DNA of 32,354 nt from Planctomycetota bacterium. Lineage in GTDB: Bacteria > Planctomycetota > Planctomycetia > Planctomycetales > Planctomycetaceae. The stretch is from NCBI GenBank assembly GCA_018242565.1, contig JAFEBR010000970.1, forward strand, positions 1 to 32,354, written 5' to 3'. The notes under the pieces were generated by a model. That model saw only the letters and a program-made list of their open reading frames with translations. It ran no database searches and had not been told where the DNA came from. Positions within the stretch are counted from its first letter, which is position 1. Every line of letters begins with the position of its first letter. The position numbers and the translations under genes were made by a program. This document shows positions 2,061 through 7,569 of the stretch, one piece after another.

Positions 2061-4004
2061 TCAGGTTGAGGGACCGTCCAACTTGGGTTCCGGTGGCGGA
2101 GGGGGCACTGTCGGTTCGAGTTTGGGCCCTTCCGGCGCCGGCGAAATTGGCTGCGGCAGCTTGCTTTGCATTTCGTCTCGCAGCGACTTCGAAATCTCGT
2201 CACGCGGCTCGAGCTTCAGCGCGCGATTCAACTGATCGACCGCTTCTTTCGGAAAACCGAGGTACGCATAGTGGAAGCCGGTCAAAAACCGCAGCGCGGG
2301 GTTGCTGGGCTTCTCTTTCACGGCCGCTTCGAGGGCCCGCAGTTGCCCCGTGTAGTCTCCGACATTGCCATACAGCTCTTTGTAGTTCGAGACCACGACA
2401 CCCCACTTGTCTTTTGGCATCATCCGCATCGCACCCTGCACGGCCCCGGCAGCCTCGTCGTAATTCCCCGAGGCAAACAATCCCTGCCCCAGCATCATCA
2501 GCAGGACGGGATTCTGATTGTCATCTACCGCGGCATGCCGCCACGCATAGACCGCTCCCTTGTAGTCGCCGGTCCGAAATGCGGATTCGCCTTGCTCTGT
2601 AAATTTCTGGGCTCCTGTCGCCGGAGTCGGAGCGGAATCGGTCGTGGTCCCATTCCCTGGAACGGGCGGACTGTCGATCGCCACGCCATCCGTCGCCGCC
2701 GAACCGACGGTCCCCAACACTTCGGGATTCGAATTCGCGCTGTAGATATACGTCGTCGTATTCACGGGGTAACCATAGGCATAACTCCCGTATCCGTAGG
2801 GGCTGTAACCCCAGCCTCCATAGCCCCAATTCGCGTAGGGATAGCTGCACCAGCCATAAAGCAGATTTCCAAGCCAGCCTCCCCAGCCATAGCCGTACCC
2901 GGGATATCCCCAGCCACCGAACCATCCGGGCCAGTAACCCCAGCCGAGGCCCCATCCCCATCCGTTACCCCAGCCCCAACCCCAACCGCGTCCCCATCCC
3001 CAGCCACCTCCCCAACCACCACCCCAGCCCCAGCCTCGATTCCAACCCCAACCCCGATTCCAGTTGCCACCCCAGCCTCCATATCCCCAGCGGTTGGCTC
3101 CAAAGTTGTTGAAGTGGTTGCCCTGAACGAATGACCGGTTGCCAAAATTCCCATTGTGGGCCAGCGCACCGTTACCGTGCCGCCCGGCGAATGATCCGCC
3201 CGCAACACCATTCTGATGGTGCGCCCCAGCAGCCCCTCCCTGGCCCACAGCGTGCCGCGAAGCAAACGAATGATTACCCGCCCCGGCTCGACTGAGTCCG
3301 GCACCGTTCGCCCCCTGACGCGTCAGACCGCTGCCGGCGCCGGCGTTACCTGAGCGTCCTGTGCCACTATGGTTAGCCAGGAATGAATTGTTTCCGCCGC
3401 GGGAATGGGCCCCGATGTTGTTGCCCGCTCCCGTTCCGAGGTTGCGACCTCCAGCGGCCCCGGCAGATCCATGGCGTGAAAGAAATGAAGAATTTCCCCC
3501 CATGGCTCCCGACCGCATTCCCGCGGCGCCACCGAGGTTCGCCGACCGACCCGCCGTGCCTCCCGAGAGTCCGTTCATGCGGGCACCGTTGCCCATGCCT
3601 CCATGCGACATCGACGGGGCGCCACCCATTCGCGGGGTTCCCATGGAACCGCCACGAAAACCGCCGGCTCCCATTCCAGCCGAACCGGAGTGCATCGCCG
3701 GGCTTCCCATACGGGCACCGCCTCCCATGGGCATACCGCCACCTCCACCCATGCGCATGCCCCCCCCGGACATGCCCCCCATGTGCATACCGCCGCCCGA
3801 CATGCCGCCTCCCATGTGCATGCCACCACCGGACATGCCCCCCATGTGCATTCCGCCGCCACCACCTCCGAAATGCCCACCTCCGCCACCACCGCCGTGT
3901 CCACCACCTCCGCCGCCACCCCCACGAGCGAGTGTCAAATCCGGCATGCTGACCATGATCACAGCCAAACTGGCCACGGTTGCCATAAGAATCCGCCGGT
4001 ACAT
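2061..4004 (-). CDS. Secreted Gly/Met/His/Trp-rich low-complexity protein with C-terminal TPR domain
   Basis: The 647-residue protein starts with a Sec signal peptide (MYRRILMATVASLAVIMVSM, cleavage near residue 26). It then has four zones. Residues 27-100 are Gly-rich with three copies of a MHMGG(G)MSGGG unit. Residues 100-300 are Gly/Ala/Ser/Asn-rich with five spaced copies of an NxSFxxxH-like motif (171, 205, 244, 269, 289). Residues 305-412 are Trp-Gly and Tyr-Gly repeats. Residues 467-610 are about four TPR-like helical hairpins (GDYKGAVYAWRHA, GNYDEAAGAVQGAM, FPKEAVDQLNRALKLEP), followed by a Pro-rich tail. The start ATG is preceded by a G-rich GGGGGG about 6 nt away. TPR domains bind proteins, so a cell-envelope scaffold or matrix protein is possible, but the function is unknown. 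The Met/His units could bind metal; this is inference only. Confidence 0.9.
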   Translation of the reverse strand: MYRRILMATVASLAVIMVSMPDLTLARGGGGGGGGHGGGGGGGHFGGGGGGMHMGGMSGGGMHMGGGMSGGGMHMGGMSGGGMRMGGGGGMPMGGGARMGSPAMHSGSAGMGAGGFRGGSMGTPRMGGAPSMSHGGMGNGARMNGLSGGTAGRSANLGGAAGMRSGAMGGNSSFLSRHGSAGAAGGRNLGTGAGNNIGAHSRGGNNSFLANHSGTGRSGNAGAGSGLTRQGANGAGLSRAGAGNHSFASRHAVGQGGAAGAHHQNGVAGGSFAGRHGNGALAHNGNFGNRSFVQGNHFNNFGANRWGYGGWGGNWNRGWGWNRGWGWGGGWGGGWGWGRGWGWGWGNGWGWGLGWGYWPGWFGGWGYPGYGYGWGGWLGNLLYGWCSYPYANWGYGGWGYSPYGYGSYAYGYPVNTTTYIYSANSNPEVLGTVGSAATDGVAIDSPPVPGNGTTTDSAPTPATGAQKFTEQGESAFRTGDYKGAVYAWRHAAVDDNQNPVLLMMLGQGLFASGNYDEAAGAVQGAMRMMPKDKWGVVVSNYKELYGNVGDYTGQLRALEAAVKEKPSNPALRFLTGFHYAYLGFPKEAVDQLNRALKLEPRDEISKSLRDEMQSKLPQPISPAPEGPKLEPTVPPPPPEPKLDGPST

Positions 4005-4122
4005 GCTACACCCCCCGTTTCAAATGAAATCTGTCCTACTTAATCATCCGCGCCCCGAACTGAGAAATCAATCAAGATTTACTGATGCTTGCAGAATTGT
4101 CATGCTGCATGGGAGCAACTGG

Positions 4123-4140
4123 CCGGTCATCTGGGACCGG
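4123..4140. other. Small hairpin in divergent intergenic region
   Basis: CCGGTC (4123-4128) and GACCGG (4135-4140) form a six-pair stem with loop ATCTGG. It lies 40 bp before the start at 4181, in the divergent gap from the Gly-rich protein gene. It may be an operator or a leader hairpin, or chance; nothing in the sequence decides. Confidence 0.25.
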
Positions 4141-4180
4141 GCGACACTTCCTTGTTACCCCACCCTCAGCAGGACTTGTG

Positions 4181-6001
4181 ATGCACAGCACCACTCTGAT
4201 GACTGTACGGTTTGGAGCGTGTTTTCTGGTCATGTGGGCGTTGCCCCAGGCGCACGCCGGCGAAGTTTCGCTGGCCATCGATACGCCCCTGACTCCGCCA
4301 GCCTGGGCACTGCTCGAACGGGAACTGTTGCGTGCCAATACCGACGCCTGCCGTGAGTTCTTCTCGAAGTACTTCGATGAGCGCGGCTGGCTGCTGTGCG
4401 TCGAACGCTGGGGAGGCGACGATGGTCCTGATGACGCCATCGAGAACTGCAACGACTGGCCACTGCTCTCCGCACTCGGGGCCCCCGAGGTTGTACTGGA
4501 AATGACCAAACGGGCCTGGGAGGGACACTTACGGCAGTACACACTGGCGAAAACGGTCGATGTCCCCTTCGCCCGGGACGGCATGTACTACCGGGAATTC
4601 CCGGTGAGTTTCGACTGGCTCCACAACGGCGAAGGACTCAACGTCTTCAACCTGCAGGGTCTGAATGATCCGCGCGATGCCAGGTTCCAGCAGCGAGTCC
4701 GCCGATACGCCGGGTTTTATCTCGGTGAAGATCCCGCCGCCCGTAATTACGACCCCGAACGCAAGATCATTCGCAGTCTGTTCAACGGGAGTCGCGGACC
4801 GCTCTTAAGGAAGGCCACCGCCGTCGACTGGGCTGGCGATCCCATCGATGTCGAAAATCGGTTTCGGCTGGGACACGGCGAGAGCAGCTACGCAGAGATG
4901 CTCGAACACTTCAAAGACTACAACGACATCATCGGCGACCACCCGCTCAATCTGCTGACCACGTCACTGGCGCTCAATGCCTACATGCTGACGCACGAAG
5001 AGAAGTACCGCAGATGGCTGCTGGAATACGTCGACGCCTGGCGCGAGCGCACACTCGCCAATAACGGCATCATCCCCACGAATATCGGCCTCGATGGCAA
5101 AATTGGCAGCGCGGCGGGAGGGAAATGGTACGGCGGCGTCTACGGTTGGGGGTTCTCGGTCTATGACCCGGCGTCCAAAAAGATCGCGCACCGGAACCAG
5201 CAGTATCAGGGCTTCATCGGCTTCATGAACGCCTTTCTATTGACCGGTGACGACCAGTATCTCGACGTCTGGCGGAAGCAGATTGATACGATCAACTCGC
5301 AGGCCCGTCAGGTCGACGGCCAAACCCTTTATCCTCACATGTTCGGCGATCAGGGCTGGTACGACTTCACACCGCAGAAATACGACAGCCATGTCCTGGA
5401 AATCGCGTACCTTTCACAGCGTTCCGACGATCTCGCACGGGTCCCGGGAAATCCGTGGCTCGCCTATCTGGCCGGCAAGCAACCCGGCTACCCGGAAATG
5501 GCACTCCGCCGCGACCTCACGCAGATCCGCAACCGGGTCCAGGCCCTGCGACAAGACACCACCACGCCCGACACACGACTGGCCGACGATCCCATGGCGT
5601 ACAATCCCGCCAGTGTGCAATCACTGGTGGAACTGATGCTGGGAGGGCTGATGCCAGCACGGATCGGCTCGGTCCTCAATTGCCGATTCCGGTATTTCGA
5701 CCCACTGGCCCGGCGCGCGGGACTGCCCCCTGATGTGGCTGCCCTCGTGGATTCACTGACCACGGACTCAGCCGCAGTCACACTCGTCAACGTGAATCAA
5801 CTGGAACCACGGACACTCGTGCTGCAGGCCGGGGGCTATGCAGAGCACGAATTCGTTTCCGTCACTCACGATGGAACAACCGAAGCTGTGCAGGCCCGGC
5901 ACCTCACGCTGCGACTGGCCCCCGGTGCGGGCGTTCGGCTCGCTTTTCAAATGCGCCGTCACGTCCACCCGCCAACCATGCAGTTTCCCTGGCCTGAGTG
6001 A
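4181..6001 (+). CDS. Secreted protein of unknown function, possibly an (alpha/alpha)-barrel enzyme
   Basis: The chosen ATG at 4181 has AGGA seven bases upstream and opens a clean signal peptide (MHSTTLMTVRFGACFLVMWA, cleavage after AHA at residue 26), giving 606 residues. An in-frame ATG at 4085 would bury the signal sequence. The central part carries helical repeats with phrases such as NAYMLTHEEKYRRWLLEYVD and NAFLLTGDDQYLDVWRK; the pattern 'LTGDxxYLD' is common in six-hairpin glycosidases and related (alpha/alpha)6 barrels. The last 80 residues look like a beta-sandwich (alternating hydrophobic strands). I do not recognise the exact family and no catalytic residue can be named, although acidic and aromatic residues are abundant (GGKWYGGVYGWGFSVYDP). 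It stands alone between divergent and converging neighbours. A polysaccharide-active enzyme is the best guess. Confidence 0.85.
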   Translation: MHSTTLMTVRFGACFLVMWALPQAHAGEVSLAIDTPLTPPAWALLERELLRANTDACREFFSKYFDERGWLLCVERWGGDDGPDDAIENCNDWPLLSALGAPEVVLEMTKRAWEGHLRQYTLAKTVDVPFARDGMYYREFPVSFDWLHNGEGLNVFNLQGLNDPRDARFQQRVRRYAGFYLGEDPAARNYDPERKIIRSLFNGSRGPLLRKATAVDWAGDPIDVENRFRLGHGESSYAEMLEHFKDYNDIIGDHPLNLLTTSLALNAYMLTHEEKYRRWLLEYVDAWRERTLANNGIIPTNIGLDGKIGSAAGGKWYGGVYGWGFSVYDPASKKIAHRNQQYQGFIGFMNAFLLTGDDQYLDVWRKQIDTINSQARQVDGQTLYPHMFGDQGWYDFTPQKYDSHVLEIAYLSQRSDDLARVPGNPWLAYLAGKQPGYPEMALRRDLTQIRNRVQALRQDTTTPDTRLADDPMAYNPASVQSLVELMLGGLMPARIGSVLNCRFRYFDPLARRAGLPPDVAALVDSLTTDSAAVTLVNVNQLEPRTLVLQAGGYAEHEFVSVTHDGTTEAVQARHLTLRLAPGAGVRLAFQMRRHVHPPTMQFPWPE

Positions 6002-6071
6002 TCACGGACCAACGTGCCCCAGAGTCGCATCGACCACAATCCATCCCCTTAAAGGCTGGCGTAAAAACACA

Positions 6072-6103
6072 AGCAGCCCACGAGTTAATACTCGTGGGCT
6101 GCT
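6072..6103 (-). terminator. Intrinsic terminator of the porin gene
   Basis: A perfect 14-bp stem (6072-6085 with 6090-6103) closes a TAAT loop. On the minus strand it is followed by TGTGTTTTTAC, a T-rich tail. It lies 35 bp past the porin stop. On the plus strand no T-run follows, so it is directional. Confidence 0.9.
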
Positions 6104-6138
6104 GTCGTAGGGAACAATCGGGCAGATCTGCTGTCGGA

Positions 6139-7569
6139 CTAGAACGTCACGATCATGTCAACAGCGTAGACCGTCTGATTGTAAATGTTTCCCGAGTAGT
6201 TGCCGGCACCGGTGTAGATGTCGTGGTTATCACCCCACATCTGGCGAATTTCCGGGCGGAACATCAGGTTGGCGTACGGCTTGTAGTTCAAGCCGAACGA
6301 CAGGGTGTAGTAGTTGACAGCGTCCGGACGATACCATTCGCCGCGAACACCACCCTTAACTTTCGGGGTGAAGTCGTAGAAACCGTATTGGATCAAACCG
6401 ATCGACTGTCGGGGCACACCACCCTGTACGTTGTAGTTCTGCGGCGTGTTCGTGAACACATACGCGTTGGGGTTGTTGGGATCCGTCGTAAGTGTGTTCA
6501 GGTCCGTCGCCAGATCGTCGAACTGAGTGACGGTGCTGATTTTTTCAGTCCACTGACGGGACAGGATCATGCTGTTGATCGCCCCGTTGCCACGCCAGCC
6601 GAGGTTACCCCAGATCATCGAGTACGACAGAGTGGTCTTGTCGTCGATCATCCACGAGAAGCCGCCCAGGAACGAGCTGCCCCCGTTGAACTGGTAGAAA
6701 CCGGTATCCATACCAGCCACCCAGCCGCCCAGAACCGAGAACTTATCGGAAACCTTGTAGGTCGCCAGGGCACCCGAGTGGGTGAAGGGTTCACTGTTCC
6801 AGAACGTCAACTGACGGGTGATGAAGAACTGGCCGGTCGAAGGCACCACTTCATAACCGATGATGGTATAAAAGTGCCCCATTTTGACCGACAGTTTGTC
6901 GTAGGCGAGTTCGCCATACGCCTGGGGCAACGCAAAGTTGTACGCCCCATGGTCAAACCCGTTCAGATAATCCCAGTGACCGGGATTCGTGTTACCGAAC
7001 GACTGACCATCAAAGCCCTGCAGACCGTACATGCCGTCGATAAGGAAACCCCAGCACCAGCCTTTGGAGCCGTCGGCGATCTTTTCCATGAACAGGTACT
7101 GCTGGTGCAGACCGAAGAAACCCCATTGCTGCTGGCTCAGGGTGTTACCGTTACCGGTGAACGCACCGTCCGGGTCGCTCACGTAGGCCCACTGCATGTG
7201 CCCACTGATTTTCACCCCCGAGTCTTTGAAGGGGTTGCTGCCATCGCTGTTGGTGAACAGGTTGGTCAGGGTCCACACCTCGGGAGCGGCGGGTTCTTCC
7301 GGTGCGGTTTCTTTGTCATTGGCCGGGAACGTCGGAATGCCTTCCGCGGGGGGAGCTTCATCGGCTGGCGGCGCCGCATCTTCCTGCATCACCCGACGGA
7401 TACTGGCATCGTCGCTGGAGGATTGTGCTACAGCACGGGGAGCTGAAGGACGGCGAACACCATCGGCTTGAGCATTCTGTCCGTGAATGCTGGCAAAACC
7501 GATTGCGGAAAACAGGGCTCCAGCGTTCATCAGCCGCCAGAATGCCTTTTTGAAATCAACCTTTTTCAT
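6139..7569 (-). CDS. Outer-membrane beta-barrel porin (BBP2/OmpL-like)
   Basis: This 476-residue protein has a basic N-terminus and hydrophobic core (GALFSAIGFASIHG) with a likely signal cleavage after QNAQA at 35. A Pro/Ala/Glu-rich linker of about 70 residues follows. From about 106 the sequence alternates polar and aromatic residues in amphipathic strands (GHMQWAYVSD, KMGHFYTIIGYEVVPS, YYTLSFGLNYKPYANL) and ends in Phe, as expected for a barrel recognised by BamA. The segment around GHFYTIIGYE, a Gly/aromatic stretch, is typical of the putative porin family BBP2. The start is supported by CAGGAG eight bases before ATG. It is a single-gene unit with its own terminator and a long upstream region, suggesting individual regulation. 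Transported substrate is unknown. Confidence 0.88.
   Translation of the reverse strand: MKKVDFKKAFWRLMNAGALFSAIGFASIHGQNAQADGVRRPSAPRAVAQSSSDDASIRRVMQEDAAPPADEAPPAEGIPTFPANDKETAPEEPAAPEVWTLTNLFTNSDGSNPFKDSGVKISGHMQWAYVSDPDGAFTGNGNTLSQQQWGFFGLHQQYLFMEKIADGSKGWCWGFLIDGMYGLQGFDGQSFGNTNPGHWDYLNGFDHGAYNFALPQAYGELAYDKLSVKMGHFYTIIGYEVVPSTGQFFITRQLTFWNSEPFTHSGALATYKVSDKFSVLGGWVAGMDTGFYQFNGGSSFLGGFSWMIDDKTTLSYSMIWGNLGWRGNGAINSMILSRQWTEKISTVTQFDDLATDLNTLTTDPNNPNAYVFTNTPQNYNVQGGVPRQSIGLIQYGFYDFTPKVKGGVRGEWYRPDAVNYYTLSFGLNYKPYANLMFRPEIRQMWGDNHDIYTGAGNYSGNIYNQTVYAVDMIVTF

Follow-up and report, generated by a model that had tools for sequence, protein, structure and literature searches.

Predicted secreted TPR proteins of Planctomycetia with a conserved, spaced SFxxRH-type motif on a predicted disordered arm

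The surfaces of planctomycetes are unusual, with budding growth, stalks and holdfasts, and to our knowledge few of the proteins that build them are known. MamA, a magnetosome TPR protein (NCBIfam NF040959) and the nearest curated TPR model to the protein described here, self-assembles and, as far as we know, has neither a signal peptide nor a Gly-rich arm. A second point of comparison is provided by animal silk-like and Gly-Tyr structural proteins, in which a signal peptide is combined with GX and GGY-like repeats that abound in Trp/Tyr and Gly. Closer in taxonomy, the YTV-domain cell wall proteins are described in excerpts of PMC10632474 as rich in cysteine and as restricted to Planctomycetia, the same class as the organism studied here.

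The window, by which we mean the whole 32,354-nt stretch of DNA that was analysed (contig JAFEBR010000970.1 of a Planctomycetota bacterium), contains a 647-aa ORF on the minus strand (2061-4004) that starts with ATG and is open throughout. An earlier note on this DNA had read in it a signal peptide, a Gly/His/Met region, SFxxxH motifs, a Trp/Tyr-Gly block and TPRs, and all of these zones are indeed present:

2061..4004, minus strand: whole gene, 647 aa plus stop (ORF and translation)
3927..4004, minus strand: predicted Sec signal peptide, residues 1-26, without a lipobox Cys (sequence; helix 2-18 in the model)
3510..3926, minus strand: zone 1, Gly/Met/His low-complexity arm, residues 27-165 (composition; tandem arrays)
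3135..3509, minus strand: zone 2, residues 166-290, a disordered linker in which SFxxxH motifs recur at intervals (motif statistics)
3471..3488, minus strand: motif SFLSRH, residues 173-178 (sequence)
3369..3386, minus strand: motif SFLANH, residues 207-212 (sequence)
3252..3269, minus strand: motif SFASRH, residues 246-251 (sequence)
3177..3194, minus strand: motif SFAGRH, residues 271-276 (sequence)
2730..3134, minus strand: zone 3, Trp-Gly/Tyr-Gly block, residues 291-425 (composition)
Residues 426-463: linker between the Trp/Tyr-Gly block and the TPR
2163..2615, minus strand: zone 4, TPR domain, residues 464-614, four helical hairpins and a cap (Pfam, AlphaFold2)
2064..2162, minus strand: Pro-rich C-terminal tail, residues 615-647 (sequence)

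Of the 139 residues of zone 1, 67 are Gly, 22 Met and 7 His; of the 135 in the Trp/Tyr-Gly block, 46 are Gly, 24 Trp and 17 Tyr. Residues 27-425 contain no Asp or Glu at all. The repeats and the signal peptide recall the animal silk-like proteins, from which the window protein differs in being bacterial and in carrying a folded TPR and the SFxxRH motif; the likeness is one of composition only, and AlphaFold2 predicts no structure in these repeats. It has a single Cys and no YTV motif, and thus lies outside the YTV-domain proteins as these are defined in the excerpts of PMC10632474. Its membership in the TPR superfamily is supported by a Pfam TPR_2 match (1.6e-10, 40.7 bits against a cutoff of 27) and by an AlphaFold2 model with four hairpins and nine helices. 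These hairpins carry the consensus residues of generic TPRs (Pfam TPR_2, TPR_16 and TPR_19; designed CTPRs), but the protein also has near-invariant residues specific to its subfamily and a secreted low-complexity motif arm, which the names and descriptions of the TPR matches, the basis of this comparison, do not suggest. Searches of solved structures, by Foldseek and with a sequence profile against the PDB, returned generic TPRs (designed CTPRs, O-GlcNAc transferase TPRs and MamA). The MamA model is matched by 27 of 27 A1 members, the window protein scoring 44.1 bits over its whole length and 48.1 bits for the domain, against a cutoff of 200. No model in Pfam or NCBIfam names the family, generic TPR models being the only matches, and the earlier statement that the protein could not be assigned to a named family therefore holds.

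The gene is flanked by a convergent SpoIIE-type phosphatase gene and by a divergent gene without a Pfam match. Between the convergent ends of the phosphatase and family genes lies a 35-base near-perfect palindrome (2010-2044, 89% self-complementary) that resembles a tRNA T-arm. A tRNA remnant downstream of the gene was considered and dropped, since ARAGORN reports no tRNA and the stretch is a palindrome; from its sequence, a shared terminator hairpin is likely. Two consecutive ORFs on the plus strand (4085-6001, 638 aa; 5998-7446, 482 aa) have no Pfam match at 0.001. Open frames opposite the family gene (2166-3134 and 3361-4356, plus strand) are probably a by-product of Gly-rich, GC-rich codons and not genes. 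No plasmid match was found.

The window protein belongs to a multi-copy family that is restricted to Planctomycetia in the genomes sampled. Whole-protein matches occur in 106 of the 150 genomes of a family-level sample, and a TPR profile (A1, E 1e-25) that captures two subfamilies, A and B, together is matched in 90 of the 397 genomes of a class sample. All 8 matching genomes in a phylum sample of 392 are Planctomycetia, so that at this threshold no member was detected in any other class. A sample of 170 genomes of the order contained 31 with A-type domains at 1e-40. Besides the window protein, its own genome encodes members of both subfamilies (A: L004 and L005; B: L006, L007, L008, L009 and L012).

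Subfamily A was delimited by a score of at least 150 bits against the A1 TPR profile, a threshold chosen in this analysis: A-type places mostly score above 197 bits and B-type places mostly below 135, with five in between (176, 152, 151, 150 and 142.5), the last of which, L176, falls below the threshold and was left out of subfamily A. The window protein belongs to subfamily A both by its score of 279 bits and by the second defining feature, at least one motif in a long linker. Our full count comprises 72 distinct A-type TPR domains, one of them that of the window protein; this set does not take in every A-type place (G250:C123, for example, is absent). Two unrelated TPR proteins, L010 and L011, were left out of subfamily B. 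In a TPR tree of 80 rows, built by a quick method that leaves many forks open, subfamily B lies on one side of a branch and A on the opposite side, with support 91. Two further places have more than one A-type or A-type-like copy: contig G105:C406 (L139) carries two, convergent and about 4 kb apart, and G331:C137 has two A-type-like matches in tandem, each with an internal stop.

Signal peptides were called by inspection and a hydrophobicity rule, and residues 1-26 of the window protein show the hydrophobic core and A-x-A-like end of a Sec signal peptide. A recognisable signal peptide is present in 55 of the 72 A-type members; the remaining 17 rows consist of 15 that are cut by a locus edge and two internal ones (L170 and L174). 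The 55 signal-bearing members divide into 46 with a linker of at least 100 residues and nine short forms of 335-390 aa (L005, L038, L077, L094, L102, L167, L168, L169 and L171), which have a signal peptide, a short arm, the aromatic block and the TPR, and none of which (0/9) has the motif. Both long and short A-type forms occur in the window's genome. The short motif-less forms correspond to four changes on the TPR tree, so the motif arm was probably lost or gained several times.

Subfamily B (L006, L007, L009, L012 and others) resembles the window protein in its signal peptide, low-complexity arm, Trp/Tyr-Gly block and homologous TPR, and resembles subfamily A in occurring as several copies within the same genomes. 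It differs in an extra C-terminal domain of about 90 aa, and SFxxxH is absent from all 16 of its linkers of similar length. The C-terminal domain carries a [VIL]xGxWxA signature in 15 of 19 proteins, and its 90 aa are conserved (WxAxRxDGSxFxLxLTxDxxFxWxF) in L006-L009, L015-L019 and L045-L047; no Pfam match to it was found in the two proteins scanned (L006 and L009). L103 and L104 form a third group of TPRs, intermediate between the two subfamilies; they have short arms and His/Asp-rich C-terminal tails that are possibly metal-binding.

The earlier note had proposed predicting disorder, and AlphaFold2 gives pLDDT below 50 across residues 19-461 and mostly 80-95 for nine helices at 464-614, from an alignment of the window protein with L001 and L002. 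The relative L002, modelled as the predicted chain, shows the same split between a disordered arm and a folded TPR; both runs rest on alignments of these three sequences only. The idea of an envelope or extracellular structural protein is partly supported in that a Sec-type signal peptide and a predicted disordered Gly/aromatic arm would fit it.

Compared across relatives, the conserved element of the arm is a short spaced motif, and not the Gly/Met composition. In the window linker, F is followed by H at offset +4 four times, where shuffles give 0.4 ± 0.6. The four SFxxxH copies bear out the spaced motif of the earlier note; a fifth motif-like place (SFVQGNH) is wrongly spaced and does not match. 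A generalised form, F-x-x-[RHNQSK]-[HN], is found at least once in all 46 signal-bearing members whose linker measures at least 100 aa (shuffles: mean 21.7, maximum 29) and at least twice in 39 of them (mean 7.2, maximum 13), with 136 copies in total (mean 31.2, maximum 45). The observed counts exceed those of every one of 300 composition-preserving shuffles. These 46 proteins represent 13 genus codes and 6 families and are not all independent, and shuffles ignore kinship; the main guard against relatedness is an out-of-family set of 18 A-type proteins from families f3, f6, f9, f13, f14 and f23. Since the generalised motif was worded after the first set, fairer tests are provided by the 18 out-of-family proteins and by the forms SFxxxH and F..R[HN]. 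Strict F..R[HN] yields 27 copies in the out-of-family set against 1.4 ± 1.2 in shuffles and is present in 14 of the 18 proteins, the relaxed motif being present in 17, and SFxxxH, the wording of the earlier note, yields 43 copies against 4.5 ± 1.9 in 39 linkers. When residue pairs and offsets past residue 100 are ranked by enrichment in the first relatives, F+4H and F+1L lead, followed by S+1F and F+3R; F+4H ranks first in both the first and the out-of-family sets.

Motif copies lie 5-107 aa apart (median 34), and most of them fall in the second half of the linker (0, 12, 54 and 39 copies in successive quartiles). The TRF program reports tandem arrays in zone 1 (3708-3920) and in the Trp-Gly block (2936-3062) and none over the motif linker (3135-3509), so the motif copies are unlike recent tandem copies and their origin as recent tandem duplicates is unsupported. 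Nine of the 17 signal-less A-type rows have at least 97 residues before the aromatic block, and the motif is present in seven of these but not in L043 and L044, truncated relatives from genus g46 whose linkers measure 164 and 390 residues. Neither aromatic block nor motif was found in the 211 residues upstream of the TPR in L174.

These counts bear directly on the view that the TPR alone is functional and that the N-terminal zones are drifting low-complexity sequence. Such drift would be compatible with the tandem arrays in zones 1 and 3, with short forms that have little arm, and with a zone 1 that varies widely in length and composition among relatives (Gly 6-75 per 100). Against it, the motif outnumbers its occurrences in all of the shuffles, holds in other families, including the family f6 member L091, which is poor in Gly (6 per 100 in zone 1) and nonetheless keeps FLERHG, FFHRHS, the aromatic block and the TPR, and falls to chance in subfamily B, where 16 linkers of comparable length contain 2 copies and 2.6 would be expected. 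We therefore strongly disfavour drift and consider it very improbable. The earlier note had proposed a search of planctomycete proteomes for the same zone order, and both this order and the spaced motif are found again in further families within Planctomycetia. We tested for the outcome it had named as speaking against its reading, in which homologues would retain only the TPR and their repeats would be missing or random, and did not observe it: the zone order is preserved in relatives, and the spaced motif most of all.

Composition is a different matter. Most relatives are Gly-rich in zone 1, but the stress that the earlier note laid on glycine repeats was partly misplaced because the composition varies while the short motif is conserved. 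Met richness, likewise, is real in the window protein but is shared by only some members of the family: among the 55 members, zone 1 has a median of 3 Met per 100 residues (range 0-18), which rules out the Met/His repeats as the conserved element. The aromatic fraction of the Trp/Tyr-Gly block has a median of 0.24 and a minimum of 0.11 in relatives. The Met and His of the window's zone 1 could also point to a metal-binding secreted protein, in which copper, nickel or zinc would be bound up by a His/Met/Gly arm tethered through the TPR. His is common in zone 1 of the relatives (median 10 per 100) and the motif itself ends in His, but zone 1 His ranges from 0 to 20 per 100 and Met is as variable as stated above, some members of families f9 and f23 often replace the final His of the motif by Asn (SFASRNFS, NFADRNFS), and no metal-related gene was seen to recur in the neighbourhoods compared. 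We consider this function improbable.

The reading that we prefer, although we hold it tentatively and with slightly more doubt than conviction, is that of a secreted scaffold of the planctomycete envelope or extracellular matrix, made of a disordered aromatic-Gly arm with docking motifs and of a TPR dock. The Sec signal would export the protein, which might then also cross the outer membrane. The mature chain would consist of an extended, disordered arm, which in the window protein is basic and lacks acidic residues from 27 to 425, displaying several copies of a docking motif of roughly [S/Q/T]F[L/A]x[R/N/H]H and ending in a Gly-aromatic (WG/YG) block that may self-associate or stick to surfaces. 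The C-terminal TPR would be the folded dock to which a peptide or partner binds. Because motif and dock occur together, the motif several times in each chain and the family as several paralogues in each cell, a multivalent assembly could result.

In favour of such a dock, the residues that are near-invariant in subfamily A and absent from B include E473, H490 and Q507: E473 is found in 97% of subfamily A, with Arg in 12 of 19 and Glu in none of the B proteins, and Q507 in 97% of subfamily A, with Leu in 19 of 19 B proteins. By the TPR consensus, E473 and Q507 fall at what we take to be position 9 of the A helix in the first and second repeats, on the concave, ligand-groove face. The concave face of a TPR is its usual peptide-binding side. 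An acidic or polar groove and a basic motif may thus fit each other, a fit that falls short of proof. A stronger version of this scaffold makes SFxxRH the ligand of the family's own TPR. Long chains bearing motif and dock, together with short paralogues bearing the dock only, would then cross-link through the E473/Q507 groove into a silk-like, self-assembling extracellular network found only in Planctomycetia. We judge this network unlikely. Some results weigh against the scaffold in general and against docking on the protein's own TPR in particular; the motif-less L043 and L044 and the gene neighbourhoods, which offer no envelope-specific partner, are among them. Neither AlphaFold2 model, each from a three-sequence alignment, has a confident segment at the motifs, and hence no docking on the protein's own TPR is seen; moreover, the nine motif-less short forms keep the same TPR, which is therefore not conserved only for the motif of its own chain.

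The main rival to the scaffold is that SFxxRH is read or cut by another envelope protein, such as a protease, a sorting factor or a wall component, while the TPR binds an unrelated partner and the chain serves as an adaptor or as the precursor of released peptides. The variable linkers between motif copies are as in repeated processing or docking sites, and both the TPR of the short motif-less paralogues and the undocked motif in the models favour a separate reader. Candidates for such a reader are nevertheless wanting in the genomic data. Among 23 neighbourhoods, delineated with a crude gene caller that in several cases mistook antisense frames for the family gene, no envelope-specific partner gene was found next to the family. 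The sole widely recurring neighbour, at seven loci, is a DUF1501-like gene, and a conserved operon was rejected on this comparison; the DUF1501 family is common in planctomycetes. A scan of the window's genome with one DNA pattern, which covers only part of the motif variants, gave 43 matches against 26 for a reversed-pattern control, and ORFs checked at 30 places revealed no other multi-motif protein, hence no sign of a wider motif system. A genome-wide sorting tag was rejected on the same grounds, as the motifs in the inspected ORFs were single and lay in wrong-frame or unrelated sequence. A separate reader or cutter of the motif is thus possible, but we lean away from it.

While TPR proteins and Gly-rich secreted proteins are known kinds, their combination with a class-restricted SFxxRH-type motif was not found described in the open-licence papers searched, nor was the family itself, and a term look-up in PMC8567305 and PMC10632474 returned nothing on the family in the parts of these papers that it covered. 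The case also shows that spacing statistics across relatives can reveal, within low-complexity sequence, a motif that domain libraries do not see.

Our findings raise the questions of which partner reads SFxxRH and of whether docking between motif and TPR builds extracellular material. If the motif-TPR network is true, it would be a surface material that bacteria assemble by docking motifs on TPRs. A class-restricted, multi-copy family of predicted secreted proteins with a conserved short linear motif offers in any case a concrete entry to planctomycete surface proteins, and the motif arm and TPR protein are probably part of how planctomycete cells build or decorate their surface.
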